Virus record (IMG/VR): IMGVR_UViG_3300046804_003678
Span: 1 to 56,934 of that record
Length of the DNA stretch: 56,934 bases
Strand: one strand, 5' to 3'
Origin: a virus
Shown here: positions 2,986-55,258 of the stretch, piece by piece
How positions within the stretch are numbered: position 1 is the stretch's first letter
Layout: each line of letters starts with the position of its first letter
Notes under the pieces: generated by a model
What the model saw: only the letters and a program-made list of their open reading frames with translations
Databases searched by the model: none
What the model was told of the DNA's origin: nothing
Made by a program: the position numbers and the translations under genes

Positions 2986-3651
2986 ATGTATTATTCTTTG
3001 ATTAGAAACAATAAAATAGAATTAGGACCGCGTATATGGTCATGGTCAGCTTTTTATGATTATCTCATAGAAGAATCTCTTGACACTTCTACATTACCTA
3101 AAACTGCGCCCGACCAACCAATCGTAACGGATGATTGGAAGATATTACCTACAGCTGCACCTACAATGCCAAACAACATGAATGAACCGTTTGAACAGCT
3201 AGCTGGGCCATTTTGGACAATAAATGAAAACGATGTTACAGGATATTACGATGTTGCTCCTGTAGATATTGATGCGATTAAAGGTATACTAAGAGCAAAA
3301 GTAGCAGATAATAGATATAAATTGGAAATAAAAGAATTTAATTATAATTTAAATGGTAACAATGTTACTGTAAACACAAACAGAGAAGTTAGAAATAATT
3401 ATTTTATGAAATATCTTGAACTAGATTCAGACGAAACTATACAATGGAAATTTAATCAAGGTTGGTTTGAAACAAGTAAAAATGATTTTAAAAATATTAA
3501 CATTATGTTAAAAAATCAAATACAAGCTAGTTTTGATTGGGAATTACAAGTTAATCAGCAAATAGATAATTGTACATCGGTTGATCAATTAAAACTAATA
3601 GAAACTAGACATTCTTCTCAAATTCCTTCAGATCCTTTACATGCCAGCTAA
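2986..3651 (+). CDS. DUF4376-like tail-fibre-associated protein
   Basis: A 221-aa protein between two RCC1 genes. The C-terminal ~120 residues (LRAKVADNRYKLEIKEFNYN, then VNTNREVRNNYFMKYLELD, TIQWKFNQGWFE) resemble the DUF4376/tail-fibre-assembly type, where a short modified-beta region precedes a helical IQWK(F/T) segment. The N-terminal part (MYYSLIRNNKIELGPRIWSW) looks like the conserved opening of phage fibre-associated proteins. It overlaps propeller B by 11 bases, suggesting translational coupling. Chaperone or adaptor for the neighbouring propellers is an inference. Confidence 0.6.
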   Translation: MYYSLIRNNKIELGPRIWSWSAFYDYLIEESLDTSTLPKTAPDQPIVTDDWKILPTAAPTMPNNMNEPFEQLAGPFWTINENDVTGYYDVAPVDIDAIKGILRAKVADNRYKLEIKEFNYNLNGNNVTVNTNREVRNNYFMKYLELDSDETIQWKFNQGWFETSKNDFKNINIMLKNQIQASFDWELQVNQQIDNCTSVDQLKLIETRHSSQIPSDPLHAS

Positions 3652-4831
3652 TACCGTTAATTATCAAGAGTCAGGTGTTGATATTAGTGAAAAATACATA
3701 GGTATTGATGATGCTTGGAGGATTGACCCATCTTATTTTAATAAAGATGGTTCAGATATTTTAGGATATGGTGGATTATGGACTTGGGGATATAACACCA
3801 CTGGAAGTCTTGGCAGCGGAGTTGTAACTCATAGATCTTCTCCTGTTCAAGTTGGATCTACAACAAATTGGAAAAAAATATCTTCTGGGGGTGGTGGTTC
3901 TGCTTATGCTATTAAAATTGATGGTAGTTTGTGGGCATGGGGTGATAACACACAATTCTCCCTAGGAACTGGAAATGCTATACACCGATCTAGTCCTGTG
4001 CAAATAGGTTCGATTACACAATGGAAATCCGTAACACCCGGCGGCGATTTTACATATTTCTTAAGAAACAATCAAACATTGTGGGCATGTGGGTATAATT
4101 TATATGGCCAAATAGGGAACGGTGTTTCTTCTTTTTCTGTGAGAATATCTTCTCCTATACAGGTTGGAGCTCTGACAGATTGGTCCTTTTTAGCTGCAGG
4201 TGGGGGGTCTGGATATGCTATAAAAACAGATGGCACTTTATGGACCTGGGGAGCTAATAATATTGGGCAGCTAGGTCAAGGAGATACTGTTCACAGAAGT
4301 AGTCCTACACAAGTTGGAGCATTAACAGACTGGTCATGGGTTGCAGGTGAAAATAATAGTTCTGCAGGTATTAGAAATGATGGAACGTTGTGGACATGGG
4401 GGGGAAACACTTTTGGTCAATTGGGACAAGGAGATTTTGTTCATAGAAGTAGTCCAACTCAGGTTGGCTCTCTTACTGATTGGTATTCAGTATCCTCTAT
4501 GAGTGTTGGTTATGGTTTTACTAAAACTGATGGTACGCTGTGGACTATAGGTGTTAATAATTATGGTCAAATAGGTGATGGAACTGTCATTCTCAAATCA
4601 TCACCTGTAAAGATAGGAGCTCTGACTAATTGGAGACCTCTAGCTCCTAGTCTAGATGCTCGTACAGCTGGTATCAAAACTGATGGTACTCTGTGGACAT
4701 GGGGGATTAATACTGATGGTTCATTGGGAGACGGAACTGTCATTCACAAATCATCACCTATTCAAGTAGGTTCATTATCTACGTGGAAAAATGTTGGTAT
4801 ATTAGGGGCAGCTATTGGGGCAATTAAATAA
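3641..4831 (+). CDS. RCC1-repeat propeller protein B
   Basis: A 396-aa protein with an N-terminal unique segment of about 45 residues (MPANTVNYQESGVDISEKYI) and seven RCC1 repeats, counted from seven SSP(V/I/T)(Q/K)(V/I)G linkers. It starts inside the end of the DUF4376-like gene, and its stop overlaps the start of propeller C by one base. Repeats are close to those of A and C, but the N-terminal tails differ, as expected if the tails select different attachment points. Function on the virion is inferred from location. Confidence 0.85.
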   Translation: MPANTVNYQESGVDISEKYIGIDDAWRIDPSYFNKDGSDILGYGGLWTWGYNTTGSLGSGVVTHRSSPVQVGSTTNWKKISSGGGGSAYAIKIDGSLWAWGDNTQFSLGTGNAIHRSSPVQIGSITQWKSVTPGGDFTYFLRNNQTLWACGYNLYGQIGNGVSSFSVRISSPIQVGALTDWSFLAAGGGSGYAIKTDGTLWTWGANNIGQLGQGDTVHRSSPTQVGALTDWSWVAGENNSSAGIRNDGTLWTWGGNTFGQLGQGDFVHRSSPTQVGSLTDWYSVSSMSVGYGFTKTDGTLWTIGVNNYGQIGDGTVILKSSPVKIGALTNWRPLAPSLDARTAGIKTDGTLWTWGINTDGSLGDGTVIHKSSPIQVGSLSTWKNVGILGAAIGAIK

Positions 4832-6021
4832 TGGCAATAAAATATAATGCCAATTCAATCTTATTTGAAAGTATATTTTTACCTAGATCATATACAAACT
4901 TATATCTACAAAATTATCCATCAGCTTTCAATGCTCAAATGTGGGAATGGGGAGATAATGCATTTGGTCAACTTGGACAAAATAATGTAACACATAGATC
5001 ATCTCCAGTTCAAGTAGGTTCAATAACTGGATGGAAAACGGTATCCTCTAATTTTCATTGTTTGGCTGTTAAATATGATGGAACACTGTGGTCATGGGGA
5101 AGAAATACATGGGGTGAACTAGGAGATAATTCTGTAATACACAGATCATCTCCAGTTCAAATTGGTGCATTAACTAATTGGTCACAAATTACAGCTGTTC
5201 AATCTGGAAGTAGCATAGCTATCAAAACAGATGGTTCACTTTGGGGATGGGGACAAGGTAGCTATGGTCAAATTGGTAATGGTTCAGTCCAGACTTTTTC
5301 TAGTCCGGTTCAAGTAGGTTCACTTACTAACTGGTTATTGCTAGCATCCGGTCAAGATCATATTATTGCTATAAAATCTGATTATTCACTTTGGGCCTGG
5401 GGTCACGGGCGAGATGGAGGATTGGGTGACGGTACAATAGTTAATAAATCAACTCCTGTTCAAATAGGCACACTATATAATTGGTCTAAAATATCAGCTG
5501 GAGGATATAGTTCTGCAGCAATAAAAACAGATGGTACTTTGTGGGCATGGGGACAAAATAACAATGGTCATGTAGGAAATGGAACTGTTATTCCAAGATC
5601 ATCTCCTGTTCAAATTGGTTCGTTGACAAATTGGAGAACTATATCAATAGGAGGAGCTGGAACTTCTGCTATTAAAACCGATGGTACTTTATGGTCGTGG
5701 GGTCCTAATCTAACTGGGCAGCTGGGTGATGGTACTATCATTCATAGATCATCTCCTGTTCAAGTAGGATCTTTAACAAATTGGAAACTATCTTCTGTTA
5801 CAGGACACAATGGAGCCAGCTTACAAAGAGGAACATTTTCAGCTATTAAAACCAATGGTACATTGTGGGTATGGGGACAAAACGGCGTTTATGGTTTATT
5901 GGGTAACAATGATGCAAGTCCTAACACAGATGTATCATCTCCAGTTCAAGTAGGATCACTCAATTACTGGAAAACTTTGCCTTCAAGACAACCAGATTCT
6001 AATCTTATAGCCTTTGCATAA
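4831..6021 (+). CDS. RCC1-repeat propeller protein C
   Basis: A 396-aa protein with a unique N-terminus (MAIKYNANSILFESIFLPRS) then seven RCC1 repeats beginning near residue 35 (MWEWGDNAFGQLGQN). It is the third and last propeller gene in the unit; the start codon overlaps the stop of propeller B (TAATG). It carries the partner of the 51-bp repeat found in propeller A. Short sequence deviations occur mainly in the loops after WGxN, where a propeller would contact ligands. Virion adhesion is inference. Confidence 0.85.
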   Translation: MAIKYNANSILFESIFLPRSYTNLYLQNYPSAFNAQMWEWGDNAFGQLGQNNVTHRSSPVQVGSITGWKTVSSNFHCLAVKYDGTLWSWGRNTWGELGDNSVIHRSSPVQIGALTNWSQITAVQSGSSIAIKTDGSLWGWGQGSYGQIGNGSVQTFSSPVQVGSLTNWLLLASGQDHIIAIKSDYSLWAWGHGRDGGLGDGTIVNKSTPVQIGTLYNWSKISAGGYSSAAIKTDGTLWAWGQNNNGHVGNGTVIPRSSPVQIGSLTNWRTISIGGAGTSAIKTDGTLWSWGPNLTGQLGDGTIIHRSSPVQVGSLTNWKLSSVTGHNGASLQRGTFSAIKTNGTLWVWGQNGVYGLLGNNDASPNTDVSSPVQVGSLNYWKTLPSRQPDSNLIAFA

Positions 6022-6086: not shown

Positions 6087-6632
6087 ATGAAAATTAACAT
6101 TGGTGCTGGCTATAAAAAATTTGATGGGTTTGTAAACGTAGACAATGACCCAAACTGCGATCCAGATTATATTGTAAATTTGGAAACAGATAAACTTCCT
6201 TTTGAAGATAATTCAGTAGAAAAGGTTATCGCTCATCATATTTTAGAGCATATCGGTGATGGATATTTGAATCTAATTAAAGAATTGTATCGAGTATGTA
6301 AACATGGAGCAATTATAGATGTTAGGGTTCCATACCATCACCACGAAGTATTTTATAATGATCCTACTCACAAGAGACCTATCACAATTGAAGGTCTTAG
6401 AATGTTTTCTAAAAAATTTAATCAAAGAGATATAGATATAGGGTCTGCAACATCTACATTAGGTATTATGTTAGATGTAGATTTTGAAATAATTAATTAT
6501 GACTATGTGCACGATAGTTTTTATGATGAGATTATTCCTAAAAATACTCCAGAACAAAATGCAAGGTTGTTAAGAGAAGCGCTTAACACAACAATAGAAG
6601 CTCATGCAGTTTTAACTGTTGTAAAGGAATAA
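6087..6632 (+). CDS. SAM-dependent methyltransferase-like protein
   Basis: A 181-aa class I methyltransferase-like protein. INIGAGYKKFDGFVNVD is a shortened SAM-binding motif I with the acidic residue at the end of strand 2. LPFEDNSVEKVIAHHILEHI and LIKELYRVCKHGAIIDVRVP match the type-11 (UbiE/sugar methyltransferase) pattern. The ATG at 6087 is chosen because GAAAGG lies 7 bases upstream; an upstream in-frame GTG has no good site. It opens a run of sugar-transferase genes, so O-methylation of a glycan is a reasonable but unproven role. Confidence 0.75.
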   Translation: MKINIGAGYKKFDGFVNVDNDPNCDPDYIVNLETDKLPFEDNSVEKVIAHHILEHIGDGYLNLIKELYRVCKHGAIIDVRVPYHHHEVFYNDPTHKRPITIEGLRMFSKKFNQRDIDIGSATSTLGIMLDVDFEIINYDYVHDSFYDEIIPKNTPEQNARLLREALNTTIEAHAVLTVVKE

Positions 6633-6634
6633 AA

Positions 6635-7954
6635 ATGCACCTTTCAGCTGTTGTAAAATTTCTTAAAAATACAGATGAACTACAAACTGCAAAGGTACTA
6701 CTTGATACGTTTGCGAAGTATGCTAATGGTTTGGATCAATATGATGAACTTGCAATGCTCTATCAGGAAATCAAATGTTATGATGTTTCTTTGAAAATGC
6801 TTCACAAATGCATATCTATGGCTAACAATCGAGAAATGTATACAATAAGATCCAATTTGGCAAAGGTTTTAAATCATTCAAACGACCCTCACAAGGCGTT
6901 AGAGTATAGTTTAATGAATTTAGAAATGGATCCAAATAATTACGATACTGTGATGGAAATTTCATTTTCATATTACTTAATGGGAAATAAAGAAAAATCT
7001 TATCAGATTCAAAATGAGCTTCTTGAAAAAGATATAGATGTGTCTCTTAAAAAAAGAATCATGTATAATATGGGAACTTTCCAGATGGAGCGTGGAAAGT
7101 TTAAAGAAGGTATTCGTAATATGATTATGGGAGGTCGAGGTATTGGTATATGGCCTCCTATGAAAAAACCATTTCCAAAATGGGATGGTGTTTCTAATGA
7201 TAAAACATTAGTAATATATGGTGAGGCTGGTATAGGTGATGAATTAATTAATGTCAGATTTTCTAATGAACTTAACAAAAGAAATATCAAACATATATGG
7301 GTAAGTTTAAGAAAAGATCTATCTAAAATTTTTAACGATAATGCAATTAAATCTATACACTCTAGTGTCAACTTAGATCCCACAGAAGAATATTATTTTA
7401 TAGAAGCAATGTCACTTCCAATATATCTTGAGCTAGAAGAACAACAATTGTGGACAGGTGCATATCTTAGACCTAATCAAAATTTTATAGATAAGTGGAA
7501 GAATATTTTACCAAAAGACTTTATTACTTTGCGTTGGAGTGGTAATCCTTATTATGATCAAGATCTCCATAGGTTTGTTGATAGAGATATTCTAGTAGAT
7601 AGATTTGCTAAATTTAATTTACCAATGATATCTCTACAAATTGATAAAAAGAACGAAGATTCAAGATTGTTAGATGTAGATATCAAATCATGGGAAGATA
7701 CGCTAGCTATTCAATATCTTGCAAAATGTAACATAACAAGTTGTACAAGCACTGCACATTCTGCAGCTGCTATGAATGTTAATACAATTATTATTCCTCC
7801 AATTGCAACTTACTATCCCTGGATAACAATGAGAGATAGAATACATTCATATTGGTATGGTGATAAAGCAGTATTGTTTCCTCAAACAGAACACAAGAAC
7901 TGGACAACACCTGTAAATCAAGCAGCAGAGTATTTTGAAAATAATATACTATGA
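6635..7954 (+). CDS. TPR protein with GT9/heptosyltransferase-like domain
   Basis: A 439-aa two-part protein. Residues ~1-155 are helical TPR-like repeats (LLDTFAKYANGLDQYDELAM, LAKVLNHSNDPHKALEYSLM). Residues ~185-430 resemble a GT-B glycosyltransferase of the GT9/TPR group: LVIYGEAGIGDELINVRFSN, LRWSGNPYYDQDLHR, and CNITSCTSTAHSAAAMNV, the usual substrate-nucleotide region. GT9 enzymes include ADP-heptose:LPS heptosyltransferases, and TPR-like fusions occur in protein O-glycosyltransferases. The presence of hldE and hldD 3 kb away supports ADP-heptose as donor, which is inference. It overlaps the next gene by 4 bases. Confidence 0.7.
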   Translation: MHLSAVVKFLKNTDELQTAKVLLDTFAKYANGLDQYDELAMLYQEIKCYDVSLKMLHKCISMANNREMYTIRSNLAKVLNHSNDPHKALEYSLMNLEMDPNNYDTVMEISFSYYLMGNKEKSYQIQNELLEKDIDVSLKKRIMYNMGTFQMERGKFKEGIRNMIMGGRGIGIWPPMKKPFPKWDGVSNDKTLVIYGEAGIGDELINVRFSNELNKRNIKHIWVSLRKDLSKIFNDNAIKSIHSSVNLDPTEEYYFIEAMSLPIYLELEEQQLWTGAYLRPNQNFIDKWKNILPKDFITLRWSGNPYYDQDLHRFVDRDILVDRFAKFNLPMISLQIDKKNEDSRLLDVDIKSWEDTLAIQYLAKCNITSCTSTAHSAAAMNVNTIIIPPIATYYPWITMRDRIHSYWYGDKAVLFPQTEHKNWTTPVNQAAEYFENNIL

Positions 7955-8721
7955 AAATTGCAGTTGCAGTAAGAACTTGTGGTCAGGTATTCCATTGGTG
8001 GAATGATCCAGATAGAATAGTAAACGTCTCAAAACCATCGTTGGTACTTACCAGTTTAAATAGTCTTTGTAGGACTATAAAAAATAGCAAACATGATATA
8101 ATTCTTAGTATACACGATGATAATTCAGGGGAACAATTCTTATCTAGTTTGGATCAACTTATAAAATTCTACTCTATAGAATATCAATTGATACAAACTG
8201 AACCAAAAGGAAATTGTATATCACAGTATAATTGGCTAAAGCAACAACATTGTGATTATGTATATCTAATGGAAGATGATTACTTGCATACAGAGCATGG
8301 ATTGGATACTATGTTAAATGCGTGTGAATATATGCAGGAATTTGAACCAAATGATTTAGGTGGTTATGCTGTATTTCCTATGAATCACCCACATAGATAT
8401 AGAAAAAACTTTATCTATAGTAGTTATATTTTTATTATTGATAATAGATATTGGAGATCAATTACACATACTTCTGCATCTTTTTTTATTAGTAAAAAAG
8501 ATTTTACTACCTATGATGAGTATATGAGAATCAATGCATACAGCTGGAGTGAAAGAGTAGAAGAAGATAAAGCAATCAATTTATTTTGGAATATGGGTAA
8601 AGTGAGATTGTTGTGCCCTATAAACAGTCTTGCATGGCATATTGCAGATAAGACCCATGAAGATAAAATAAATGATTGGAAGAGTGTGTGGGATCAAAAT
8701 TTTGTAGAGTATAAAATATGA
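7951..8721 (+). CDS. GT-A type glycosyltransferase
   Basis: A 256-aa protein with glycosyltransferase-family-2-like layout: MKIAVAVRTCG start, SLNSLCRTIKNSKHDIILSIHDDNSG (strand with acidic nucleotide-binding residues), and YVYLMEDDYLHTEHG, a DXD-like metal site (EDD). The C-terminal half contains a helix-rich acceptor region with several Trp and His residues (SLAWHIADKTHED). No membrane helix is seen, so it is probably cytoplasmic. ATGA overlaps with both neighbours indicate coupled translation. Donor and acceptor are unknown. Confidence 0.65.
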   Translation: MKIAVAVRTCGQVFHWWNDPDRIVNVSKPSLVLTSLNSLCRTIKNSKHDIILSIHDDNSGEQFLSSLDQLIKFYSIEYQLIQTEPKGNCISQYNWLKQQHCDYVYLMEDDYLHTEHGLDTMLNACEYMQEFEPNDLGGYAVFPMNHPHRYRKNFIYSSYIFIIDNRYWRSITHTSASFFISKKDFTTYDEYMRINAYSWSERVEEDKAINLFWNMGKVRLLCPINSLAWHIADKTHEDKINDWKSVWDQNFVEYKI

Positions 8722-9554
8722 AACACGGAATGACTGCTGCGTATACAATTCTTAAGAATGAAATTAAGTATATAGAGAAGTGGTTATATTATGCAAAGCC
8801 GTTCACATACAGAGTATTATTAGATACTGGTTCTACGGATGGAAGCTGGGAATTTCTGCAAGAGTGTGCTGCAAAAGATGCTGGTCTTATAATAGAACAA
8901 AAAACATTTGATCCTTGGAGATTTGACGTAGCAAGAAAATATAATCTTGCTATGGTTCCAAATAATGTAGTCTGGTGTCTTAGTCCGGATCTTGATGAAT
9001 ATTATTCCATCAATACATTAGACACAATGGAAAAATTAATTTCTGATATACCGGATGTAACTTCAATTACGAGCGATAGATTAGATATTTACTCCAGGAC
9101 AGTAAGGGTAGGCCCACCCAATTTTATGCCAACTAATAAAATTCATCTTAGAGCAGACTATACATGGTCTCAACCAATCTACGAACATCTTGCCTGGATT
9201 CATAAAGATAGATATGAAAAAGAAGTATATTGCGATGATATATATCTTGTGCATGATCAGGACTTTAAAAAACAAGAAAGACCTGAACTTTATATAAAAA
9301 TGTTAAGGGAAGAGTATGAAAAAAATCCAACTAACACTTGGTGTCTTTGGTTCTTAGTTTATCATTTTTATAAGTCTAAAAATCTTGAAGAGTATATACC
9401 AGCTGCATGTAATTATGTAAAATATGATAAAGATAAAAATAGTAAAAATTACAAAGATACGTTAAACGACATTAAAATGTTATATATCAATATGAAAAAT
9501 ATTAAAGAACAACATAAATTATTAATAAAGCAAACTTTGGATGATGTAGAGTGA
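8718..9554 (+). CDS. family 2-like glycosyltransferase
   Basis: A 278-aa GT2-like protein. TAAYTILKNEIKYIEKWLYY followed by RVLLDTGSTDGSWEFLQE is the canonical GT2 start (D-x-GSTDGS). WCLSPDLDEYYS supplies the DxD-like metal site (DLDE). Later residues ERPELYIKMLREEYEKNP and LWFLVYHFYKSKN look like a helical TPR-type tail. The next gene starts GTG inside the GTGA stop overlap. Together with the preceding two genes it forms a three-transferase unit acting on one unknown glycan. Confidence 0.7.
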   Translation: MKHGMTAAYTILKNEIKYIEKWLYYAKPFTYRVLLDTGSTDGSWEFLQECAAKDAGLIIEQKTFDPWRFDVARKYNLAMVPNNVVWCLSPDLDEYYSINTLDTMEKLISDIPDVTSITSDRLDIYSRTVRVGPPNFMPTNKIHLRADYTWSQPIYEHLAWIHKDRYEKEVYCDDIYLVHDQDFKKQERPELYIKMLREEYEKNPTNTWCLWFLVYHFYKSKNLEEYIPAACNYVKYDKDKNSKNYKDTLNDIKMLYINMKNIKEQHKLLIKQTLDDVE

Positions 9555-10075
9555 AAAAGAATTTTAAAGTAGATAAGACAGTTTTAAGTTATATCTATGC
9601 TAAGAATTTTTGGCAAGAAGGGGATGCAGATAAATTTAAAACTGTAATCTCAAATTTAAAATTTGTTCCCAAACAATACGGCTATGAAATTGATAATTTT
9701 AATATGACCGATCCTGAACTTGATATGGTCTTTAGTGAAATGCTGGGTGATTGGATTGAGATGAAGGAAAACAAATCAGGCATCTTTAGAATACCATACC
9801 AAGGAATTCATTTTGAAGACTTCAATAGTTTAAATGAATGGAGATTTGTAGTTGCCTTAGAAGATAATCAATTCACAATTTTTAATCATAAGTCCGGTGT
9901 GACGGACGCAAGACAAGGACATAACTTTGACTATAAGAATACATTAGAGTGGACTGTAGATTCTATAGTAAACATTAAGAAAAATGATTGTCTATTTTTT
10001 AGACCATGGGTATTCCATTCATTTGAACCAAGACCAATCTACTATTATAAATTAATGGTTATTGAGGAAGATTGA
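9551..10075 (+). CDS. double-stranded beta-helix (2OG oxygenase/cupin-like) protein
   Basis: A 174-aa protein starting with GTG in a GTGA overlap with the upstream transferase. RIPYQGIHFEDFNSLNEWRF, FTIFNHKSGVTD and CLFFRPWVFHSFEPRPIYY resemble a double-stranded beta-helix with a distal His, as in phage 2OG-Fe(II) oxygenases or cupins. A clear HxD iron motif is not seen, so catalysis is uncertain. The last 24 bases overlap the end of hldD on the opposite strand, leaving no room for a terminator between the convergent units. Confidence 0.4.
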   Translation: MKKNFKVDKTVLSYIYAKNFWQEGDADKFKTVISNLKFVPKQYGYEIDNFNMTDPELDMVFSEMLGDWIEMKENKSGIFRIPYQGIHFEDFNSLNEWRFVVALEDNQFTIFNHKSGVTDARQGHNFDYKNTLEWTVDSIVNIKKNDCLFFRPWVFHSFEPRPIYYYKLMVIEED

Positions 10076-10858
10076 TATTGGGTTGATATAGTTACTTACA
10101 GTAGTAAAATTCTTAGGATAAAAATGTTGACGAGCACAAGTATAAAATTGATACTTGTGCTTTAATTTTTCTGGAAATGGAATTTCTTCTATTGAGCAAT
10201 TATATTTGTCTGCAATCAGATCTGCAACGTATCTAAAAGAAACAGGTTCAGAAGTTCCTACATCATATATTCCAGATTGTTTATCTTGTAATATACAATC
10301 AATTACATCCTCTACCCAAATAAAATCTCTGATACAATTTTCTGAATCTTTAAATATCTTTATTTTATTATCTTGTTTTGCTTGTTGAGTGAATTGATGA
10401 ATAGGCGAGGCCTGAGAACCTTTATCATCTTCACCACTTCCATATACATTAAAGAATCTCAAACCTACTATATTTTTAAATTTATTATAATTAGATTCTA
10501 CCCATATATCAACATTTGCTTTTGATATTGAATAGTGATTTAATGGGTTATAAGCGTATGTATAGCTATTACCATATACAGAAGCTGAAGAAGCATATAC
10601 GATAGAAATATTGTATATTTTAGCATGTTCAAATAAACTCATAGTATAGGAAACATTATAGGCATGCAACTTATCTAGATCGTCACATGAAGTATCACTT
10701 ATACCTCCAAGATGATAAATTTTTTCTACATTATTCCAATCAGTTGTAATTAAAGATGAAAAACAATTATCTGAATCTACAAGTATTAAATTTTTATTAC
10801 CTAGTCTTTTTACTAAGTTTCTACCTATAAATCCTTTATAACCTGTTATCAATATCAT
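10052..10858 (-). CDS. hldD: ADP-glycero-manno-heptose 6-epimerase (HldD-like)
   Basis: A 268-aa NAD(P)-dependent short-chain epimerase. MILITGYKGFIGRNLV is the Rossmann site (GxxGxxG); YASSASVYG and YSISKAN carry the catalytic Ser and YxxxK. RFFNVYGSGEDDKGSQASP, KIFKDSENCIRDFIWVEDV and IPFPEKLKHKYQFYT follow E. coli HldD (KLFEGSENFKRDFVYVGDV; IPFPDKLKGRYQAFT) rather than generic epimerases. HldD converts ADP-D-glycero- to ADP-L-glycero-D-manno-heptose. The protein is about 40 residues shorter than E. coli HldD. ATG 10858 is preferred to an adjacent TTG. It is last in the minus-strand operon. Confidence 0.85.
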   Translation of the reverse strand: MILITGYKGFIGRNLVKRLGNKNLILVDSDNCFSSLITTDWNNVEKIYHLGGISDTSCDDLDKLHAYNVSYTMSLFEHAKIYNISIVYASSASVYGNSYTYAYNPLNHYSISKANVDIWVESNYNKFKNIVGLRFFNVYGSGEDDKGSQASPIHQFTQQAKQDNKIKIFKDSENCIRDFIWVEDVIDCILQDKQSGIYDVGTSEPVSFRYVADLIADKYNCSIEEIPFPEKLKHKYQFYTCARQHFYPKNFTTVSNYINPISIFLNNH

Positions 10859-11147
10859 CAAAGAATCTTTCTGAATTTATTGCTTTATCATCAATCCAAA
10901 TATCATAAGATGGTTTACCTGTATTGACAGAAGTATATTTAACACCCCATTGATTAAGTTGATTAACTGTTAATAATAGATGATCTTTTTTAGAAACAGA
11001 GCCTCTTGCTGTCCAATAATGTATTTCATTACCTTTATCATACATATCATTTAAAAAATTAATTCTATGTACAAACGGAACCGCTTCTTCATATTTGCCA
11101 TTAGTTAATGAACATATCGTACCATCTATATCAACCAGATATTTCAT
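10836..11147 (-). CDS. small HAD-superfamily phosphatase
   Basis: A 103-aa minimal HAD hydrolase. MKYLVDIDGTI carries the DxD nucleophile pair (Asp6, Asp8), YWTARG the motif-II Thr, and YDIWIDDKA the distal acidic motif. Proteins of this size and pattern sit in capsule and LPS sugar loci. In the ADP-heptose route a HAD enzyme (GmhB) removes the 7-phosphate, and this gene lies between hldE and hldD homologues, so it may fill that step. It is much shorter than GmhB (about 190 aa), so the assignment is tentative. GGAG 9 bases upstream favours the second ATG. Confidence 0.7.
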   Translation of the reverse strand: MKYLVDIDGTICSLTNGKYEEAVPFVHRINFLNDMYDKGNEIHYWTARGSVSKKDHLLLTVNQLNQWGVKYTSVNTGKPSYDIWIDDKAINSERFFDDIDNRL

Positions 11148-11502
11148 TTTGACCATCTCCTGGTAAAACTCTAAAATTATCTTTCATAGAATCTTGAGTA
11201 GATACTTCTATAATAACAGAATTATTTTCTACTGCAATTAGCTGATGTATCGTAAAAGGATAGTTAGTACAGGTATCGCCTTCAACAATTACAGAAGTGT
11301 TAATCTTACCTGTATCTGTATCAATTGTTTTATATAAAAAAGAACCACTAAGAACATACCACGATTCTTTTTTATCTTTATGAAAATGCATAGAACTAGT
11401 TGCACCTTCTTTATCATATATCAAAAGTTTACCACAGTATTCAGGATGATCAGCAAATATTACTTCTCTACCCCATCCCTTTTCTATTGTTTGTTTAACC
11501 AC
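11131..11502 (-). CDS. cupin-domain protein, sugar-isomerase-like
   Basis: A 123-aa single cupin. Both signature motifs are intact: GATSSMHFHKDKKESWYVLSG fits G-x5-HxH-x4-E-x6-G, and GDTCTNYPFTIH fits the second motif with its metal His. The opening KGWGREVIF is typical of the mannose-6-phosphate-isomerase type II cupins found in LPS and capsule loci. GTG at 11502 is chosen because GGAG lies 7 bases upstream, giving an 8-base overlap with hldE. It may isomerise or bind a sugar phosphate; the substrate is unknown. Confidence 0.7.
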   Translation of the reverse strand: MVKQTIEKGWGREVIFADHPEYCGKLLIYDKEGATSSMHFHKDKKESWYVLSGSFLYKTIDTDTGKINTSVIVEGDTCTNYPFTIHQLIAVENNSVIIEVSTQDSMKDNFRVLPGDGQNEISG

Positions 11503-12652
11503 TATATTTCTCCAAAATCTTTGTTGTAGAATAATCATCCACATAAGGTAGGATAACAACATCAGCAAGATCATTACCAACTACAGCATCTATTGTATAA
11601 TCTCCGCCTTTAGTAATAATATCAGGCTGTAATCTTTTAATTAGCTGATAGGGTGTTTCTTCATCAAATATAATAACATCATCAACAAAGTCCAAAGACT
11701 CAAGCACTGCTTTTCTATCATGTTGATTGTTAAAAGGTCTATGGATACCTTTTAACTTTCTGATTGAGTCATCAGAATTGAGACCAACAATTAATCTACT
11801 ACCAAGACGTTTAGATTGTTTTAAATATTCAACATGACCTCTATGGAGAATATCAAAACATCCATTGGTAAATACAGTATATGCATGTCTGATATCTTCT
11901 GGTTGTAAAACATAAGTTCCAAATTTAGTAACAGAAATGCTTGATAGCCTAACAGCTTTTTCGCAAGCCTGTTTTAATGTTTTCCCCTGATCAAGAAAGA
12001 ATGCAAGAGTAGCAGTAAAAATATCACCCGCCCCAGTTACATCTATCACTTGATGTTGTTCTGTAGGAATGTTAATAATACCGTCTCTGGTAACAATGGA
12101 AGCACCATCAGCTCCTCTGGTAACAACAATAGCTCCAATATTATTTTCAACTAAAGCGATCTTGATACTGCTATATTTTTTTAAAATAAACTTGCTAGTT
12201 TCTTTATGATTCATTTTTACGATATCAGCATTCTTATAATTTACAATAGATTTTTTAGCATCAACTATTACCTTTGAGTTTCTTTTATGGCAATAGTCAA
12301 TAATATCTTGACTGTTATGAAGATATCCTTTATTATAATCAGAAAGAACTACATAATTACAATTCTTTAGATTGAATTTAGGAACAGATTTATTTGCAAC
12401 ATATTGTTCTTGATCCATACGAAATACAATATGATTATCTACAACATATCTGTATTTTTTAGAATTATTTGTCCCGTAATGAACAACCTTACTTCCAAGA
12501 GCTTCAAGATTTTTAACAACATTACCAGCTCCTCCAGATATGGTTTCTTGGAAGTCTTTTTCAAATACTGGGATGGGAGATTCTGGAGAGATTCTATTAG
12601 TAGAACCGTACACATAAATATCTGTGATGAAATCACCAACAACAACAATCAT
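11495..12652 (-). CDS. hldE: bifunctional heptose kinase/adenylyltransferase (HldE-like)
   Basis: A 385-aa two-domain enzyme. The N-terminal ~255 residues are a PfkB/ribokinase kinase (MIVVVGDFITDIYVYG, ISGGAGNVVKNL, DVTGAGDIFTATLAFF with the catalytic Asp). The C-terminal ~125 residues are a nucleotidyltransferase (FTNGCFDILHRGHVEYLKQS with HxGH, then ITKGGDYT). HldE makes heptose-1,7-bisphosphate and later ADP-heptose. The kinase part is shorter than in E. coli HldE (about 475 aa total). ATG 12652 has AAAGGA 6 bases upstream. It is the first gene of a four-gene minus-strand operon. Confidence 0.9.
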   Translation of the reverse strand: MIVVVGDFITDIYVYGSTNRISPESPIPVFEKDFQETISGGAGNVVKNLEALGSKVVHYGTNNSKKYRYVVDNHIVFRMDQEQYVANKSVPKFNLKNCNYVVLSDYNKGYLHNSQDIIDYCHKRNSKVIVDAKKSIVNYKNADIVKMNHKETSKFILKKYSSIKIALVENNIGAIVVTRGADGASIVTRDGIINIPTEQHQVIDVTGAGDIFTATLAFFLDQGKTLKQACEKAVRLSSISVTKFGTYVLQPEDIRHAYTVFTNGCFDILHRGHVEYLKQSKRLGSRLIVGLNSDDSIRKLKGIHRPFNNQHDRKAVLESLDFVDDVIIFDEETPYQLIKRLQPDIITKGGDYTIDAVVGNDLADVVILPYVDDYSTTKILEKYSG

Positions 12653-12679
12653 AACAAATCCTTTCAAATTCACATATAT

Positions 12680-12708
12680 ATTATACTGTGAATGATATAT
12701 TTAGACAA
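12680..12708 (-). promoter_or_regulatory. sigma-70-like promoter of the heptose operon
   Basis: On the minus strand TTGTCT (12703-12708), a 17-bp spacer and a perfect TATAAT (12680-12685) lie just before hldE. The -35 box is inside CTGTTGTCT, also seen in the early promoters at 42627 and 42973. Its complement overlaps the ribosome site of the plus-strand gene at 12722. The 7-bp inverted repeat ATTCACA/TGTGAAT (12668-12674, 12687-12693) brackets the -10 box and could be an operator. Confidence 0.75.
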
Positions 12709-12721
12709 CAGGAGTTTAGTA

Positions 12722-13081
12722 ATGAGTCATTTTGCACATATTGATGAAAACAATACTGTAACACAAGTAATTGTAGCAGAACAAGATTTTATTAATTCAG
12801 GTGCTGTGGGCAATCCTTCTGAATGGGTACAGACTAGTTATAACACATATGCTGGTCAGCACAAAAATGGTGGTACTCCTCTTCGTAAGAATTATGCTGG
12901 AATTGGCTATACCTATGATTCAGGTCGTGATGCTTTTATTCCACCAAAGCCTTTTGATAGCTGGATTTTAGACGAGGATACATGCCTTTGGCAGGCTCCA
13001 ACACCAAGGCCAACTGATGGTAAGATCTATCAGTGGAATGAGATGGGTATGGTGTGGGAAGAAGTGGTGTTACCACAGTAA
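12722..13081 (+). CDS. small fibre-associated protein, copy 2
   Basis: A 119-aa paralogue of the gene at 38-397, with the same landmarks (VIVAEQDFINSGAVGN, GTPLRKNYAGIGY, WNEMGMVWEEVVLP). The start at 12722 has AGGAG upstream; an in-frame ATG at 12692 lacks one. It is followed by the same late box plus palindrome and then by a different type of fibre gene (collagen-like). The two copies therefore head two fibre cassettes. Function is unknown; a shared adaptor or assembly role is inferred from the parallel contexts. Confidence 0.8.
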   Translation: MSHFAHIDENNTVTQVIVAEQDFINSGAVGNPSEWVQTSYNTYAGQHKNGGTPLRKNYAGIGYTYDSGRDAFIPPKPFDSWILDEDTCLWQAPTPRPTDGKIYQWNEMGMVWEEVVLPQ

Positions 13082-13082
13082 C

Positions 13083-13106
13083 TATAAATATACTAGAAAA
13101 TCTAGT
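13083..13106 (+). promoter_or_regulatory. late promoter followed by a palindrome, copy 2
   Basis: TATAAATA (13083-13090) plus ACTAGA-AAA-TCTAGT (13092-13106), identical in sequence and spacing to 399-422. It drives the collagen-like fibre, collar fibre, endolysin and PAAR genes. Confidence 0.8.
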
Positions 13107-13120
13107 TTTTAGGATAAAAA

Positions 13121-14140
13121 ATGGCCACCAAAATTTATGTCTCCCAGATAGATACAGCAAATACTACTGGAGGTCAGGCGCCTCTAGGTGCTCTGATTCT
13201 TGTTGGATCGAATGGTCCTTATTGGTATCAGGGTACAGTATCTGAACTTCTTGGTGTAAATCTTAACGAAATTGTTGGATATACAGGTTCAACTGGTTTC
13301 CAGGGATCTGCAGGATCAGCTGGTTATGTAGGATCGGTAGGATTTCAAGGATCTGTTGGTGGTGATGGACCACAAGGTGCTGTTGGTTATCAGGGATCTG
13401 TTGGTGCAGGAGGTCCAGGATATACTGGATCTGTTGGAGATCAAGGCCCTGCTGGTTATCAAGGTTCACTGGGAAGTACTGGTTATTCTGGATCTGTTGG
13501 GGATCAGGGTCCAATAGGATCTACTGGCTATCTTGGATCTTCCGGATATCTTGGTTCTGTTGGTTATCAGGGTTCTGCTGGTGGTCCAGGAACAATAGGT
13601 TTTACACAGCTAACAGATACTCCTCAAAGCTATACAAGTAAGGCTGGTAATTTTGTAAGAGTCAATGCAACAGCCAATGGTTTGTTCTTTGATTCCAATA
13701 CATACACTACCAACAGTATGACTACCGATGTTAACTTTAATAGCAATACCATAATAAATCCTAATTTAAAAAGTTATAGTGAAACTATCAAGGCAACTGG
13801 AAATTCTACATCAGTAGTTACATTAGATATTAGAGACGGCAATCTAAACACAGTAACACTCAATGCTCCTATTGTTCAGATAGTAATGAGTACAGGTGGT
13901 CTAGTCTCAGGTCGTCTCTATAGCATCACTATGATGTTAAAGCAGGATGGTACTGGTTCTAGAACTGTTGATTGGTCTAACCAAACAATCTACTGGCCAG
14001 CAGGTGAAGGAATCTACTCACCAAATGGACCTACTCTTTCTACACAAGCAAATTATACAGATTTCATAACATTAATGACAACCAATGCTGGAGCAACTTG
14101 GTATGGAGTAATATCTGCTAAAGGCTTCCCAACTACATAA
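13121..14140 (+). CDS. collagen-like tail fibre protein
   Basis: A 339-aa fibre. Residues ~50-160 are a Gly-rich tract of G-x-x-G-(S/P) units (GYTGSTGFQGSAGS, GDQGPAGYQGSLGS) like the collagen-type stalks of cyanophage and other phage fibres. Residues ~165-339 form a beta-rich C-terminal domain with TLDIRDGNLNTVTL and LKQDGTGSRTVDWSN, a head domain seen on such fibres. The N-terminus (MATKIYVSQIDTANTTGGQ) is likely the baseplate or fibre-joint attachment. The repeated GGATCTGTTGG-type DNA could slip and change stalk length. Confidence 0.8.
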   Translation: MATKIYVSQIDTANTTGGQAPLGALILVGSNGPYWYQGTVSELLGVNLNEIVGYTGSTGFQGSAGSAGYVGSVGFQGSVGGDGPQGAVGYQGSVGAGGPGYTGSVGDQGPAGYQGSLGSTGYSGSVGDQGPIGSTGYLGSSGYLGSVGYQGSAGGPGTIGFTQLTDTPQSYTSKAGNFVRVNATANGLFFDSNTYTTNSMTTDVNFNSNTIINPNLKSYSETIKATGNSTSVVTLDIRDGNLNTVTLNAPIVQIVMSTGGLVSGRLYSITMMLKQDGTGSRTVDWSNQTIYWPAGEGIYSPNGPTLSTQANYTDFITLMTTNAGATWYGVISAKGFPTT

Positions 14141-38593: not shown

Positions 38594-39274
38594 CTATAAT
38601 GTACTATCTACATCTAAAGATACATTTCCTGAAACGGATATTCTGTAATCATCAGATGTGTAAAATGGATTCACACTGTGTGTTAATTTAGATGGAAAAA
38701 AACATATGATACCTTCGTATTCCTTATCTATAGGAATAGAGATATCTGATAAACTACCTAGAATATTATTATAAATTAGATTAAATTTGGATGTTTGTTT
38801 ATTTTTAGATTTAAATATTTTTGTTTCTTGGTTTAAATCGTATGGTATTTTCATCCAAATGACAAAAGATATAACACCTCCATGATAGTGAGGAGGATTA
38901 AATTCGTACTTTTTTTGAAAGTTGACCCATAGATCGTTTAGTTTAAATTTAACACTTCTAGTTAAAATATCAGGGCAGACTTTGTTACCATATTTATTAA
39001 TGTATATATGAGTAGCATTTAAAATGTAATCTTCTAGAACAGGTATACAATTATCTAGATTATATTCATGTTGTAAGTGTCCTGCTAGATATTCATGATA
39101 GCCATCTGCTAAGTTAAAATTAGATTGAATGCTTTTTATTTCATTCAATATATTTTTGTTTATATGTTCAGGAATTCTACCAAAGAATAAATTAATATTG
39201 GGTAGGGTAAATTCAAAAAGTTTGTCAGAAGTAACACTAGTCAAACCATCAAATAAATGATCATCGCTGCTCAC
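38594..39274 (-). CDS. putative 2OG-Fe(II) oxygenase, HxH type
   Basis: A 226-aa protein resembling the phage 2OG-FeII_Oxy_5-type family: FNPPHYHGGVISFVIWMKIP (metal His pair), GIICFFPSKLTHSVNPFYTS (distal His) and DDYRISVSGNVSLD (Arg for 2-oxoglutarate, then the typical S-x-N ending). The GTG at 39274 is chosen because it overlaps the upstream stop (GTGA). Activity is unproven. Two oxygenase-like genes in one operon may act on the same target. Confidence 0.7.
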   Translation of the reverse strand: MSSDDHLFDGLTSVTSDKLFEFTLPNINLFFGRIPEHINKNILNEIKSIQSNFNLADGYHEYLAGHLQHEYNLDNCIPVLEDYILNATHIYINKYGNKVCPDILTRSVKFKLNDLWVNFQKKYEFNPPHYHGGVISFVIWMKIPYDLNQETKIFKSKNKQTSKFNLIYNNILGSLSDISIPIDKEYEGIICFFPSKLTHSVNPFYTSDDYRISVSGNVSLDVDSTL

Positions 39275-39573
39275 TCTGTTACTACCTTTTTCCATTCACC
39301 TTTAGCAGTCTTTAACCAAAGATTACCATCATTACCTACAGCCATTGATACCTGTCTAGATGGATCTGTTTGAGGAAATGAACTTAATATCATACTAGTG
39401 TTATTTCCTATGTTTACTTTAACATCTTTACTCTTCTTAGAAGCACTAAGAACAAGTCTTGTACCAAAATGGCTATCATCTGGCCGATCCTCTTTGGTAT
39501 CTTCTTTTGCAAATGCAGTAACTGCCATTAACGGTGATAGTGCAATTGCACCAAATAAACTACGACGATTCAT
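39271..39573 (-). CDS. small exported protein with twin-arginine-like signal, copy B
   Basis: A 100-aa protein that opens MNRRSLFGAIALSPLMAVTA followed by FAKED. The RR motif, a moderately hydrophobic stretch and an A-x-A-like site (AFA) resemble a twin-arginine (Tat) signal peptide. The remainder (HFGTRLVLSASKKSKDVKVN, GNDGNLWLKTAKGEWKK) looks like a small beta-rich domain. Its N-terminus is clearly related to the next upstream gene. Export is inferred; a signal on a phage protein points to the periplasm of a Gram-negative host. Confidence 0.7.
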   Translation of the reverse strand: MNRRSLFGAIALSPLMAVTAFAKEDTKEDRPDDSHFGTRLVLSASKKSKDVKVNIGNNTSMILSSFPQTDPSRQVSMAVGNDGNLWLKTAKGEWKKVVTE

Positions 39574-39576
39574 ATA

Positions 39577-39987
39577 TTAACTCCATCCTACTGAATCTAA
39601 AAGACTCTCAATAGATCTTTGTAAATGATCTTTCTCATCTTCAAAGTTTCTTTGAGCGTTACGTTTTGCTTGTAGTTCAATTTTAGCAACATCTGAAAAA
39701 GATTTCAATGCTAAAATATCCACATCTACTCTGGGATATGATTTAAGATTATTAAACTCACGTACAAATATATCATTAAGTCTGGTATCTTTGTTTTTTA
39801 TTAAATTAGAAAGATTAGTTCTATAACTATCAACCATCTGTTCTTTAGTAATAGCTTGAGGCATAGATGAATATGATACATCTGATGCTGTTTGTACACC
39901 TAATCTATTACCACTTAACTCATTGGCAACCACACCGCCAAGAGAAGGAGCTAGTCCTAAGAAACCTAGCACACTACGTCTGTTCAT
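39577..39987 (-). CDS. small protein with twin-arginine-like signal, copy A
   Basis: A 136-aa protein beginning MNRRSVLGFLGLAPSLGGVV, a Tat-like start (NRRSVLGFLG), followed by a helical charged body (YRTNLSNLIKNKDTRLNDIF, LQAKRNAQRNFEDEKDHLQR). The hydrophobic stretch is short and Gly/Pro-rich, as in Tat substrates. It overlaps the upstream gene by 4 bases and is separated by 3 bases from its N-terminal paralogue. The bodies of the two proteins are unrelated, suggesting a shared signal module. Function unknown. Confidence 0.7.
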   Translation of the reverse strand: MNRRSVLGFLGLAPSLGGVVANELSGNRLGVQTASDVSYSSMPQAITKEQMVDSYRTNLSNLIKNKDTRLNDIFVREFNNLKSYPRVDVDILALKSFSDVAKIELQAKRNAQRNFEDEKDHLQRSIESLLDSVGWS

Positions 39988-52608: not shown

Positions 52609-52858
52609 TAAAGAACAAATGAAAGAAGGTTTTAGAGTAGGTGAGTATTTTGTTACTTTTCCTCCTGGAGATTTTGTTCATGAAGATAAAGATGGCAACG
52701 TATCGGTCGATGTCGACATCTATAGAATTGATAAAGATAGATTGTATAAAGTAAACGGTCAGATAACAGAAGAAGTAGAAAAACAAATTAGTGATGAATT
52801 AAATCGTATGTTGACAGCAGCGGTAGATCTTTATAAGGAGAAAGAACAGGATGTCTAA
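52589..52858 (+). CDS. 89-aa acidic unknown protein
   Basis: An 89-aa acidic protein (FRVGEYFVTFPPGDFVHEDK, GNVSVDVDIYRIDKDRLYKV, EEVEKQISDELNRMLTAAVD): a beta part then a helix. It overlaps def by 20 bases and queE by 8. Not recognised. Confidence 0.65.
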   Translation: MEENQLSKEQMKEGFRVGEYFVTFPPGDFVHEDKDGNVSVDVDIYRIDKDRLYKVNGQITEEVEKQISDELNRMLTAAVDLYKEKEQDV

Positions 52859-53714
52859 GATTAAAGTAGCAGAATTATTCTATTCACTTCAAGGTGAAGG
52901 ACAATATCTTGGAACACCTTCAGTATTTCTTCGTACGTTTGGATGTAACTTTATGTGTTCGGGGTTTGGTATGCCTCGTGGACAGTTATCAGAAGAACGT
53001 CTAGCAGTCGATCCTAAAGATTATGATAAGTATGATAATCTTCCGTTGGTTCATACAGGATGTGATTCATATGCATCATGGGATCCTAGATTCAAACACC
53101 TTTCTCCTCTATTGACAGTAGAAGCAATTGTAGATAGAATGCAACAACTCCTACCAGAGGGTAAGTTTGGTCCCGACAAGCATTTGATTCTTACAGGTGG
53201 TGAGCCATTGCTAGGATGGCAACGTTCATACATTGATCTGTTTGAAGAAATATTTAAACGTGATATGAATCTCACTCACATTACTTTTGAGACAAACGGT
53301 ACACAACAACTTAAGTCAGAATTAATTGATTGGTTTAAGTCTAATGATTGTTTTCCTGATCTAAATATAACATTCAGTGTATCATCTAAGCTTCCTTCAT
53401 CTGGTGAGAAGTGGGAAGAAGCAATACGTCCAGAAATTATTAAACAATACTATGATATTGGTAGTCTCACTTACTTTAAGTGGGTAGTATCAAACGAAGA
53501 TGATTACAATGATGTTGTAAGAGCGATTGATGACTACTCTATGACATTGAGAGCAGCAATGCAATACATTCCTGTATATCTGATGCCAGCAGGTGGTACG
53601 ACAAAGGTATATGATACTAATGAGAAATGGGTTGCTGATCTTGCAATGAAGCATGGATGGAGATACACACCACGTCTTCAAGTACAATTGTGGAAGAATG
53701 CTTGGGGAACATAA
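52851..53714 (+). CDS. queE: 7-carboxy-7-deazaguanine synthase QueE, split cysteine motif
   Basis: A 287-aa radical SAM enzyme. LFYSLQGEGQYLGTPSVFLR and FGCNFMC (Cys32, Cys36) are the QueE opening. The expected third Cys three residues on is absent, and a ~30-residue insertion follows before HTGCDSYASWD, where Cys71 and the CD(S/T)xYA motif continue the family. LILTGGEPLLGWQ and THITFETNGTQ are SAM and substrate loops. QueE turns carboxytetrahydropterin into 7-carboxy-7-deazaguanine on the path to preQ0. It is about 60 residues longer than E. coli QueE. Coupled to the next gene by TAATG. Confidence 0.85.
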   Translation: MSKIKVAELFYSLQGEGQYLGTPSVFLRTFGCNFMCSGFGMPRGQLSEERLAVDPKDYDKYDNLPLVHTGCDSYASWDPRFKHLSPLLTVEAIVDRMQQLLPEGKFGPDKHLILTGGEPLLGWQRSYIDLFEEIFKRDMNLTHITFETNGTQQLKSELIDWFKSNDCFPDLNITFSVSSKLPSSGEKWEEAIRPEIIKQYYDIGSLTYFKWVVSNEDDYNDVVRAIDDYSMTLRAAMQYIPVYLMPAGGTTKVYDTNEKWVADLAMKHGWRYTPRLQVQLWKNAWGT

Positions 53715-53965
53715 TGCCAAGAAAGAGTTCAGAGATTATTGATGATGTCATTACGTCTTTAGAGACTCTTATTGATGCTCTAGATGATGAATGGCATCAT
53801 AACGATGAAGGTGAATGGCGTAAAGCAGATAATATACGAAAAGTAATTATACCACCTGCTAAAGAAAAATTTAAGAAAGTTTTAGACGAATATATTGATC
53901 GTCGTATAGAGACATATTGTGATAAACATCACATTCAAAGAATAAAATTTACAGAGGTACAATAA
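53714..53965 (+). CDS. 83-aa helical protein between queE and queD
   Basis: An 83-aa highly charged, helical protein (SSEIIDDVITSLETLIDALD, VIIPPAKEKFKKVLDEYIDR, CDKHHIQRIKF). It starts on the queE stop and stops on the queD start, so is embedded in the deazaguanine operon. Not recognised. A role linked to the pathway is possible only by position. Confidence 0.65.
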   Translation: MPRKSSEIIDDVITSLETLIDALDDEWHHNDEGEWRKADNIRKVIIPPAKEKFKKVLDEYIDRRIETYCDKHHIQRIKFTEVQ

Positions 53966-54462
53966 TGAATAAACCAGTAGTATACAAATATGTTAGTACA
54001 AAAGAATACCATAATGCATTTCCTGTTGCATATCGTCAGTGGAAAGCGGATAGTCATTGCAATCTAATTCATGGTTATGCTTTCTCTATGAAGTTTTATT
54101 TTGGTACGGATAGCCTCGATGCTCGTAACTGGGCAGCTGACTATGGTGGTCTGAAAGAACTCAAGAATGTTCTAGAAGATCAATTTGATCATACATTACT
54201 AGTATCAGAAGATGACCCAGAGCTTGAAACATATAAGCTGCTAGAACAAAAGAAAATGGCAAAGCTTACCATCTTACCTAAACTTGGATGTGAGGGTCTT
54301 GCTGATATGTTATATCGTTATGTTAATGGTGTCTATATTCCTGATATGTGGGGTCCAGGTGAAGCAGAACGTCTATGGTGTTTCAGAGTTGAAGTAAGAG
54401 AAACATTAGCTAATATGGCCTATCGTGAAGGTCATCGTGAATGGAATGAGGAACTTATTTAA
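53965..54462 (+). CDS. queD: QueD/PTPS-like protein with altered zinc ligands
   Basis: A 165-aa T-fold protein of the 6-pyruvoyl/6-carboxytetrahydropterin synthase family. SHCNLIHGYAFSMKFYF is the catalytic-Cys and zinc region, NWAADYGGLKELKNVLEDQF the D-(F/Y)-G block, FDHTLLVSEDDP the DH motif, and FRVEVRET the C-terminal Glu. Compared with the usual H...CxxxHGH, the first His is replaced by Tyr (Tyr23) and HGH reads HGY (His36, Tyr38). Context with folE and queE supports QueD; loss of ligands leaves activity uncertain. Confidence 0.75.
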   Translation: MNKPVVYKYVSTKEYHNAFPVAYRQWKADSHCNLIHGYAFSMKFYFGTDSLDARNWAADYGGLKELKNVLEDQFDHTLLVSEDDPELETYKLLEQKKMAKLTILPKLGCEGLADMLYRYVNGVYIPDMWGPGEAERLWCFRVEVRETLANMAYREGHREWNEELI

Positions 54463-54463
54463 T

Positions 54464-55258
54464 ATGGGTGAACTTAAAGATTATTATACTGGAGAAGTTA
54501 GTAAAGTGAAAGATACAATTACAAAACCAACTAAAATAGAGACGCCTGTAACATATCAATCTGTCTCAGATAAAATCATTAAAAGGATGAAAGATGCAAA
54601 TGCTCGCTTTTTTGCCAATGATAACATTAGCAAATATATGGACGATGGCGATCTTGAGTTACTCGTTGACGAGGTAGAAGAGAAGGCTGATGCTTTCCTT
54701 CGCTCACTTTGTATTGATGTTGACAACGATCCTAACTCTAAGGGTACTGCTAGACGTCTTTCTAAGATGTATCTTAGAGAGTTAATGGCAGGTAGGTATC
54801 TTCCTGCACCAGAGGTCACAGCATTCCCTAATGATGGATCACATGGTACACAACCATATAACGGAATGTTGGTAGTTCGTGCAGAACTTAAATCTATGTG
54901 TTCTCATCACCATCAGCCAGTTACAGGGACAGCATACATCGGTATCATTCCAACAACTAAGGTGATTGGTCTTTCTAAGTATGTTCGTATTGCTCAACAT
55001 TGTGCACGACGTGGTACATTGCAAGAAGAACTATGTGGTGATATTGCTCAGGCTATCATGGATGCAACAAATAGTGAGAATGTTGCAGTTCATATTGCAG
55101 CGGAACATGGATGTTGTACAAACCGTGGTATCATGGCATCATCGTCTTTGACACAGACTACAGTACTTCATGGCATGTTCTATATCAGCAGCATTAAGGA
55201 TGAATTCTTCCAGAATATCCGCCTGCAATCGTCGCAAAACAAGTATAGCTGCTTGTAA
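54464..55258 (+). CDS. folE: GTP cyclohydrolase I (FolE)
   Basis: A 264-aa GTP cyclohydrolase I. Zinc residues Cys146 and His149 (MCSHHHQPVTG) and Cys217 (EHGCCTNRGIM) are present; TKVIGLSKYVRIAQHCARRG is the conserved substrate loop. It makes dihydroneopterin triphosphate, the first step to queuosine and related 7-deazaguanines. About 40 residues longer at the N-terminus than E. coli FolE. The start could be 54464 or the in-frame ATG at 54446. It closes the queE-queD-folE unit. Confidence 0.92.
   Translation: MGELKDYYTGEVSKVKDTITKPTKIETPVTYQSVSDKIIKRMKDANARFFANDNISKYMDDGDLELLVDEVEEKADAFLRSLCIDVDNDPNSKGTARRLSKMYLRELMAGRYLPAPEVTAFPNDGSHGTQPYNGMLVVRAELKSMCSHHHQPVTGTAYIGIIPTTKVIGLSKYVRIAQHCARRGTLQEELCGDIAQAIMDATNSENVAVHIAAEHGCCTNRGIMASSSLTQTTVLHGMFYISSIKDEFFQNIRLQSSQNKYSCL

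Follow-up and report, generated by a model that had tools for sequence, protein, structure and literature searches.

The window (IMG/VR record IMGVR_UViG_3300046804_003678, positions 1 to 56,934) is a 56.9-kb piece of a T4-like myovirus genome and includes the structural genes expected of such a phage. At 6087-12652 it carries a sugar cassette that joins an ADP-heptose synthesis operon to a tetratricopeptide-repeat glycosyltransferase (TPR-GT), inside the region of tail-fibre and RCC1-propeller genes. We give an even chance to the reading that this cassette is a virion-glycosylation module decorating the phage's own tail apparatus. The cassette is real and looks functional, and its order is not a product of chance: about ten further phage contigs have this convergent block (kept in loci L009, L169, L170, L089, L012, L172, L175, L210, L093 and L105).

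The partner genes of TPR-GT point to an acceptor. An RCC1-propeller gene is present in 79 of 84 TPR-GT-anchored phage loci, in many of them directly upstream on the same strand, and in the five loci lacking one the contig or fragment spans 4.6-13 kb; the loci compared in this paragraph are the top hits of pattern searches and do not sample phages at random. Because cupin-anchored loci by contrast carry RCC1 in only 3 of 80 cases, an RCC1 propeller protein appears to be the likeliest acceptor. When TPR-GTs were clustered at 80% identity, RCC1 lay within 3 kb in 18 of the 22 clusters (the RCC1 genes of the window itself fall outside this tally), and RCC1-anchored loci, many of them short, contained TPR-GT in 54 of 80. 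In 20 loci a methyltransferase gene lies no more than 5 kb from TPR-GT, and L009 and L175 have the two as a fusion. The first-pass annotation had named the RCC1 propellers and host lipopolysaccharide (LPS) as possible targets, and the genetic partnership with TPR-GT favours the virion over LPS. No earlier report of this pairing in phages was seen among the open-access papers listed, which is weak evidence of absence; 'RCC1' in the available passages of Ostreococcus virus papers denotes culture-collection strain numbers, not propellers.

Organization of the cassette

The plus-strand series (6087-10075) runs methyltransferase, TPR-GT, putative glycosyltransferase, GT2-type glycosyltransferase and a fifth open reading frame (ORF), and converges on a minus-strand operon ordered HldE, cupin, HAD, HldD (12652 down to 10052). 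Genes within the operon overlap by 8 bp (HldE/cupin), 17 bp (cupin/HAD) and 23 bp (HAD/HldD), the full range being 8-24 bp when the convergence point is included. The features are:

1821-2963, 3641-4831 and 4831-6021, plus strand: three RCC1-repeat propeller genes (PHROG RCC1 families), candidate glycan acceptors
2986-3651, plus strand: tail-fibre-like ORF between the RCC1 genes (PHROG tail fibre match)
6087-6632, plus strand: class I methyltransferase (Pfam Methyltransf_11, above cut-off)
6635-7954, plus strand: TPR-GT, with a predicted TPR domain (about residues 1-170) and GT-B domain (about 185-439), from the AlphaFold model, Foldseek and invariant residues
7951-8721, plus strand: putative glycosyltransferase, GT-like (no curated family match; homologues near TPR-GT)
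8718-9554, plus strand: GT2-type glycosyltransferase (Pfam Glyco_tranf_2_4, 32.5 bits against a cut-off of 27.5; phrog_13126)
9551-10075, plus strand: fifth ORF (no family match; relatives near TPR-GT/RCC1 genes)
10052-10858, minus strand: HldD, ADP-heptose 6-epimerase (TIGR02197, 190 bits; aligned to 1eq2)
10836-11147, minus strand: small HAD phosphatase, proposed GmhB role (EcbF/BcbF and 9iqw relatives; HAD motifs conserved)
11131-11502, minus strand: cupin, proposed GmhA replacement (metal-site motif; D-lyxose/L-ribose isomerase relatives; model pLDDT 94)
11495-12652, minus strand: HldE, fused heptose-7-phosphate kinase and heptose-1-phosphate adenylyltransferase (TIGR02198/02199; aligned to 4e84 and 5x9q)

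The genes named in the first-pass annotation lie at approximately the coordinates it gave, and its list omits only the fifth ORF, in which conserved H and D residues hint at a fold like that of cupins or oxygenases. It had also counted two GT-A transferases, a description that Pfam supports for 8718-9554 and that finds no family match for 7951-8721. Homologues of the latter gene occur within 5 kb of TPR-GT in 26 of the 84 loci.

TPR-GT resembles protein O-glycosyltransferases

An AlphaFold model of TPR-GT built from 31 diverse sequences (pLDDT 90.9, pTM 0.88) supports the prediction of a TPR domain joined to a GT-B domain, similar to protein O-glycosyltransferases and to WaaC. Its fold neighbours in Foldseek are TPR-bearing protein O-glycosyltransferases (SPINDLY and O-GlcNAc transferases) and, among proteins without TPRs, WaaC, which comes closest (TMt 0.50) of the listed matches whose size is that of a catalytic domain; no unrelated, non-transferase fold emerged for 6635-7954. 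Residues G199, G201, D202, R313, S369, C370 and H375 are invariant, forming GxGD202 and SC370 motifs, and D202 may correspond to WaaC Asp13, the N-lobe catalytic Asp that follows a Gly-rich loop in GT9. The Pfam glycosyltransferase families, GT9 and the OGT catalytic family included, match neither TPR-GT nor 30 of its relatives, so GT9 assignment by Pfam was rejected; of the earlier label 'TPR-GT9-like enzyme', the TPR domain and the WaaC-like GT-B fold survive in the predicted structure and the GT9-like part rests on that fold. A scan of viral contigs with the window TPR-GT as single query was unproductive.

The best Foldseek matches, O-GlcNAc transferase and SPINDLY (GT41/OGT), share with TPR-GT the order of TPR followed by GT-B, but there is no family match at sequence level, and differences in length and domain arrangement keep global TM-scores low (0.2-0.36). 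A possible functional parallel is found in the bacterial autotransporter heptosyltransferases (BAHT; TibC/AAH), in which, as we propose here, ADP-heptose decorates a repetitive adhesin encoded next door, as documented for TibC (PMC4358343). Kinship with this family, raised in the first-pass annotation, does not hold: TPR-GT lacks the four-cysteine iron finger (Cys occurs only at 48, 59, 365 and 370), for which reason BAHT membership was rejected, and its N-terminal half is helical TPR, not a beta-barrel. The donors would differ as well, as TibC uses ADP-D,D-heptose whereas the HldD of the window implies the L,D form.

Link between TPR-GT and ADP-heptose

Coupling of the two halves of the cassette depends on the HldE clade. 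Of 10 loci whose HldE is at least 50% identical to that of the window, 9 have TPR-GT (6 of 7 once dereplicated), versus 2 of 98 loci (2 of 63 dereplicated) with more distant HldE. Five of the loci that keep the convergent block (L009, L089, L012, L093, L105) do so with TPR-GTs only 25-39% identical to the window's. In a tree of TPR-GTs the heptose-linked sequences are scattered, with at least five label changes, although this is a rough figure given long branches and the entry of some loci via the HldE search. Within the window's group ADP-heptose thus appears, from gene content, to be the likeliest TPR-GT donor.

One locus, L012, has between its heptose and TPR-GT operons a gene (12520-13323) whose product looks, by eye, like a fusion of kinase and nucleotidyltransferase.

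ADP-heptose enzymes retain catalytic motifs

HldE matches TIGR02198 and TIGR02199 and HldD matches TIGR02197, strongly yet under the curated cut-offs, and the phage forms of both are short and divergent. Catalytic motifs are nevertheless intact on alignment to solved structures, in keeping with the pathway originally assigned to hldE and hldD: the Y-x3-K pair and the KGS lysine are retained in HldD (E. coli HldD, 1eq2), GAGD in the HldE kinase (HldA, 4e84), and the HxGH motif (as HRGH) and STT in the HldE adenylyltransferase (HldC, 5x9q). The small HAD protein has the HAD motifs and is related to the capsule phosphatases EcbF/BcbF and to 9iqw rather than to GmhB. Its PHROG name, 'phosphoheptose isomerase', was rejected, as both its own sequence and its relatives are HAD.

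Nol-like carbamoyltransferase genes lie directly upstream of or near phage HldE in three other loci (L002 12184-13986, L005 7310-8992, L006 4597-7972), and in those phages the heptose, or a glycan derived from it, may be carbamoylated.

A cupin proposed in the place of GmhA

Family searches of the window proteins found no GmhA (SIS fold), confirming the first-pass annotation on this point. That annotation had gone on to derive heptose-7-phosphate from the host, a view that finds no support as worded: phage HldE operons lack GmhA wherever tested and have a sugar-isomerase-like cupin instead. Of the phage HldE loci, 38 are flanked by 3 kb or more on either side; all 38 have the cupin and an HldD match, and none matches GmhA in a local test with a single query sequence. 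GmhA is likewise matched in 0 of 50 cupin-bearing phage records, which include five complete cyanophage genomes, many of the others being fragments. We consider it about even odds, judging from sequence, that the cupin replaces GmhA in the phage ADP-heptose pathway.

A metal-binding motif, HxHx4E...H (H39, H41, E46, H86), is kept in nearly all of 33 cupin relatives, and the top solved relatives of the cupin profile are D-lyxose ketol-isomerase and L-ribose isomerase, enzymes of the aldose-ketose type that the GmhA step requires. The competing possibility, to which we attach equal halves of belief and doubt, is that the cupin is some other sugar enzyme (e.g. mutarotase-like, or an epimerase) and that host GmhA supplies heptose-7-phosphate. 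The predicted structure is compatible with this, in that Foldseek fails to single out isomerases and scores quercetinase, oxalate decarboxylase, CapF, KdgF and phosphomannose isomerase alike. GmhA-like genes are also present in several bacteria whose cupin adjoins HldE, and bacterial cupin neighbourhoods, being mixed, gave no proof of replacement. Set against it are the isomerase ranking of the sequence profile, the phage counts above, two Parcubacteria genomes that have cupin, HldE domains and HldD with no SIS_2 match, and the scarcity of GmhA in Cyanobiaceae, the family of a Prochlorococcus genome, where a GmhA search at E 1e-10 is negative in 118 of 151 genomes. The HldE kinase was found in 22 of these 151 genomes and, in contrast to the phage loci, 20 of the 22 have GmhA and at most one has even a weak cupin match (overlaps were counted by hand from match lists).

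In phage P-TIM68 (L003 7844-12338) and a Parcubacteria genome (L251 10363-14182), the kinase/cupin genes adjoin genes for transketolase- or E1-like proteins and for a zinc alcohol dehydrogenase, so that another route may supply the sugar from which the pathway starts in these two.

Proposed pathway

From gene identities, intact motifs, predicted folds and conserved partnerships we infer the enzyme activities, donor and acceptor as follows. An isomerase step, with the proposed cupin in the place of GmhA, would yield D-glycero-D-manno-heptose-7-phosphate; the HldE kinase would add the 1-phosphate, the small HAD would take off the 7-phosphate in the GmhB role, the HldE adenylyltransferase would form ADP-D,D-heptose, and HldD would epimerise this to ADP-L,D-heptose. 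In the 6635-7954 protein, the TPR half would then bind a protein substrate while the GT-B half transfers the sugar, and the methyltransferase and other transferases would extend or cap the glycan. The substrate would most likely be one or more of the RCC1-propeller tail proteins encoded next door, so that the phage decorates its own tail apparatus. The fullest version of this proposal, a near-complete phage system for protein heptosylation with cupin-started, GmhA-free ADP-heptose, a new family of TPR-GT, RCC1 tail acceptors and no reliance on host heptose genes, we regard as decidedly unlikely.

Comparison with known phage systems

The nearest relative in gene content is the cyanomyovirus 'LPS' cluster (P-SSM2, S-SSM7, S-SM2; T4-GCs 304, 305, 307 and 308 among seven), which shares adenylyltransferase, kinase, cupin and epimerase homologues, mostly with HAD, and like the window cassette lies in or near tail/structural regions. 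It differs in having kinase and adenylyltransferase as separate genes, and no TPR-GT was present in the cyanophage loci examined. Co-occurrence of these genes in cyanophages was noted in 2010, with function unknown (PMC3037559), and earlier descriptions treat the cluster solely as LPS genes or as possible stuffer DNA. Virion glycosylation as such is known in mycobacteriophages (Freeman 2023, cited in PMC12619734), where, according to the citing passage, the glycans are carried by virion proteins at capsid and tail-tube C-termini, not RCC1 propellers; that passage mentions no dedicated sugar-nucleotide operon.

Alternative readings

Several observations weigh against virion glycosylation by this cassette. 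TPR-GT is absent from most phage HldE operons and HldE from most TPR-GT phages. The complete S-SRM01 genome and three 258-kb contigs hold TPR-GT without an HldE adenylyltransferase match, and therefore other donors are used in the TPR-GT family. The GT2 and GT-like genes could serve other acceptors. The RCC1 partnership is guilt by association and makes RCC1 proteins candidate virion components and acceptors. Because most TPR-GT phages are without HldE, ADP-heptose is not the obligate donor of the family as a whole; the earlier claim that TPR-GT uses a phage-made donor accordingly gains support from the coupling within this HldE clade and does not extend to the family.

Modification of the host envelope, in which phage ADP-heptose or a derivative is added to host LPS or O-chain and blocks superinfection, is in our estimate unlikely, if of some weight. 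Phage LPS genes have been read this way, rfaE of pelagimyophages being interpreted as O-chain modification (PMC7029224); HldE operons of other phages lie among glycosyltransferases, carbamoyltransferases and epimerases, and the block in the window includes GT2 and GT-like genes. TPR-GT, on the other hand, resembles protein glycosyltransferases and pairs with RCC1 genes. The LPS of marine Synechococcus is free of both heptose and KDO (PMC4515613), evidence against a core-LPS role in cyanophages that bears on the window phage only if its host is comparable. Relatives of the window phage point different ways: the nearest terminases are those of Methylophilales phage Melnitz and cyanophages (~55%) and the nearest gp23 is that of Stenotrophomonas phage DLP_6 (66%), and host assignment from them led nowhere.

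It is improbable that the cassette is two adjoining independent systems, TPR-GT and RCC1 working with another host sugar nucleotide and the ADP-heptose operon serving a different acceptor: either half does occur without the other in most phages, but close HldE relatives almost always accompany TPR-GT, and the shared convergent order persists despite the divergence of the TPR-GTs noted above.

Other features of the window

A 406-bp direct repeat (82% identical) at 37-442 and 12721-13125, carrying two copies of a phrog_7759 gene, flanks the RCC1-plus-sugar block, as if the block had been inserted or duplicated via recombination. The G+C content of the sugar cassette (6087-12652) is ~0.30 versus 0.36 in the remaining window, suggesting a separate origin. 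At 52851-55258, consecutive radical SAM, PTPS (QueD-like) and GTP cyclohydrolase I genes resemble the 7-deazaguanine pathway, making DNA modification possible. Two small adjoining ORFs on the minus strand (39271-39987), with no family match, each have an MNRRS start and hydrophobic stretch like those of a Tat signal peptide.

Implications

The gene set described here is partly known, while the RCC1/TPR-GT partnership and the cupin-for-GmhA pattern are new. Phage sugar genes near tail fibres are usually classed with LPS genes or with stuffer DNA; the RCC1/TPR-GT pairing names a specific, testable protein acceptor. Two database names are corrected: the HAD is listed as 'phosphoheptose isomerase' and the cupin as 'cysteine dioxygenase'. 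The swap from GmhA to cupin is systematic in phage ADP-heptose operons and suggests an unrecognised route into ADP-heptose.

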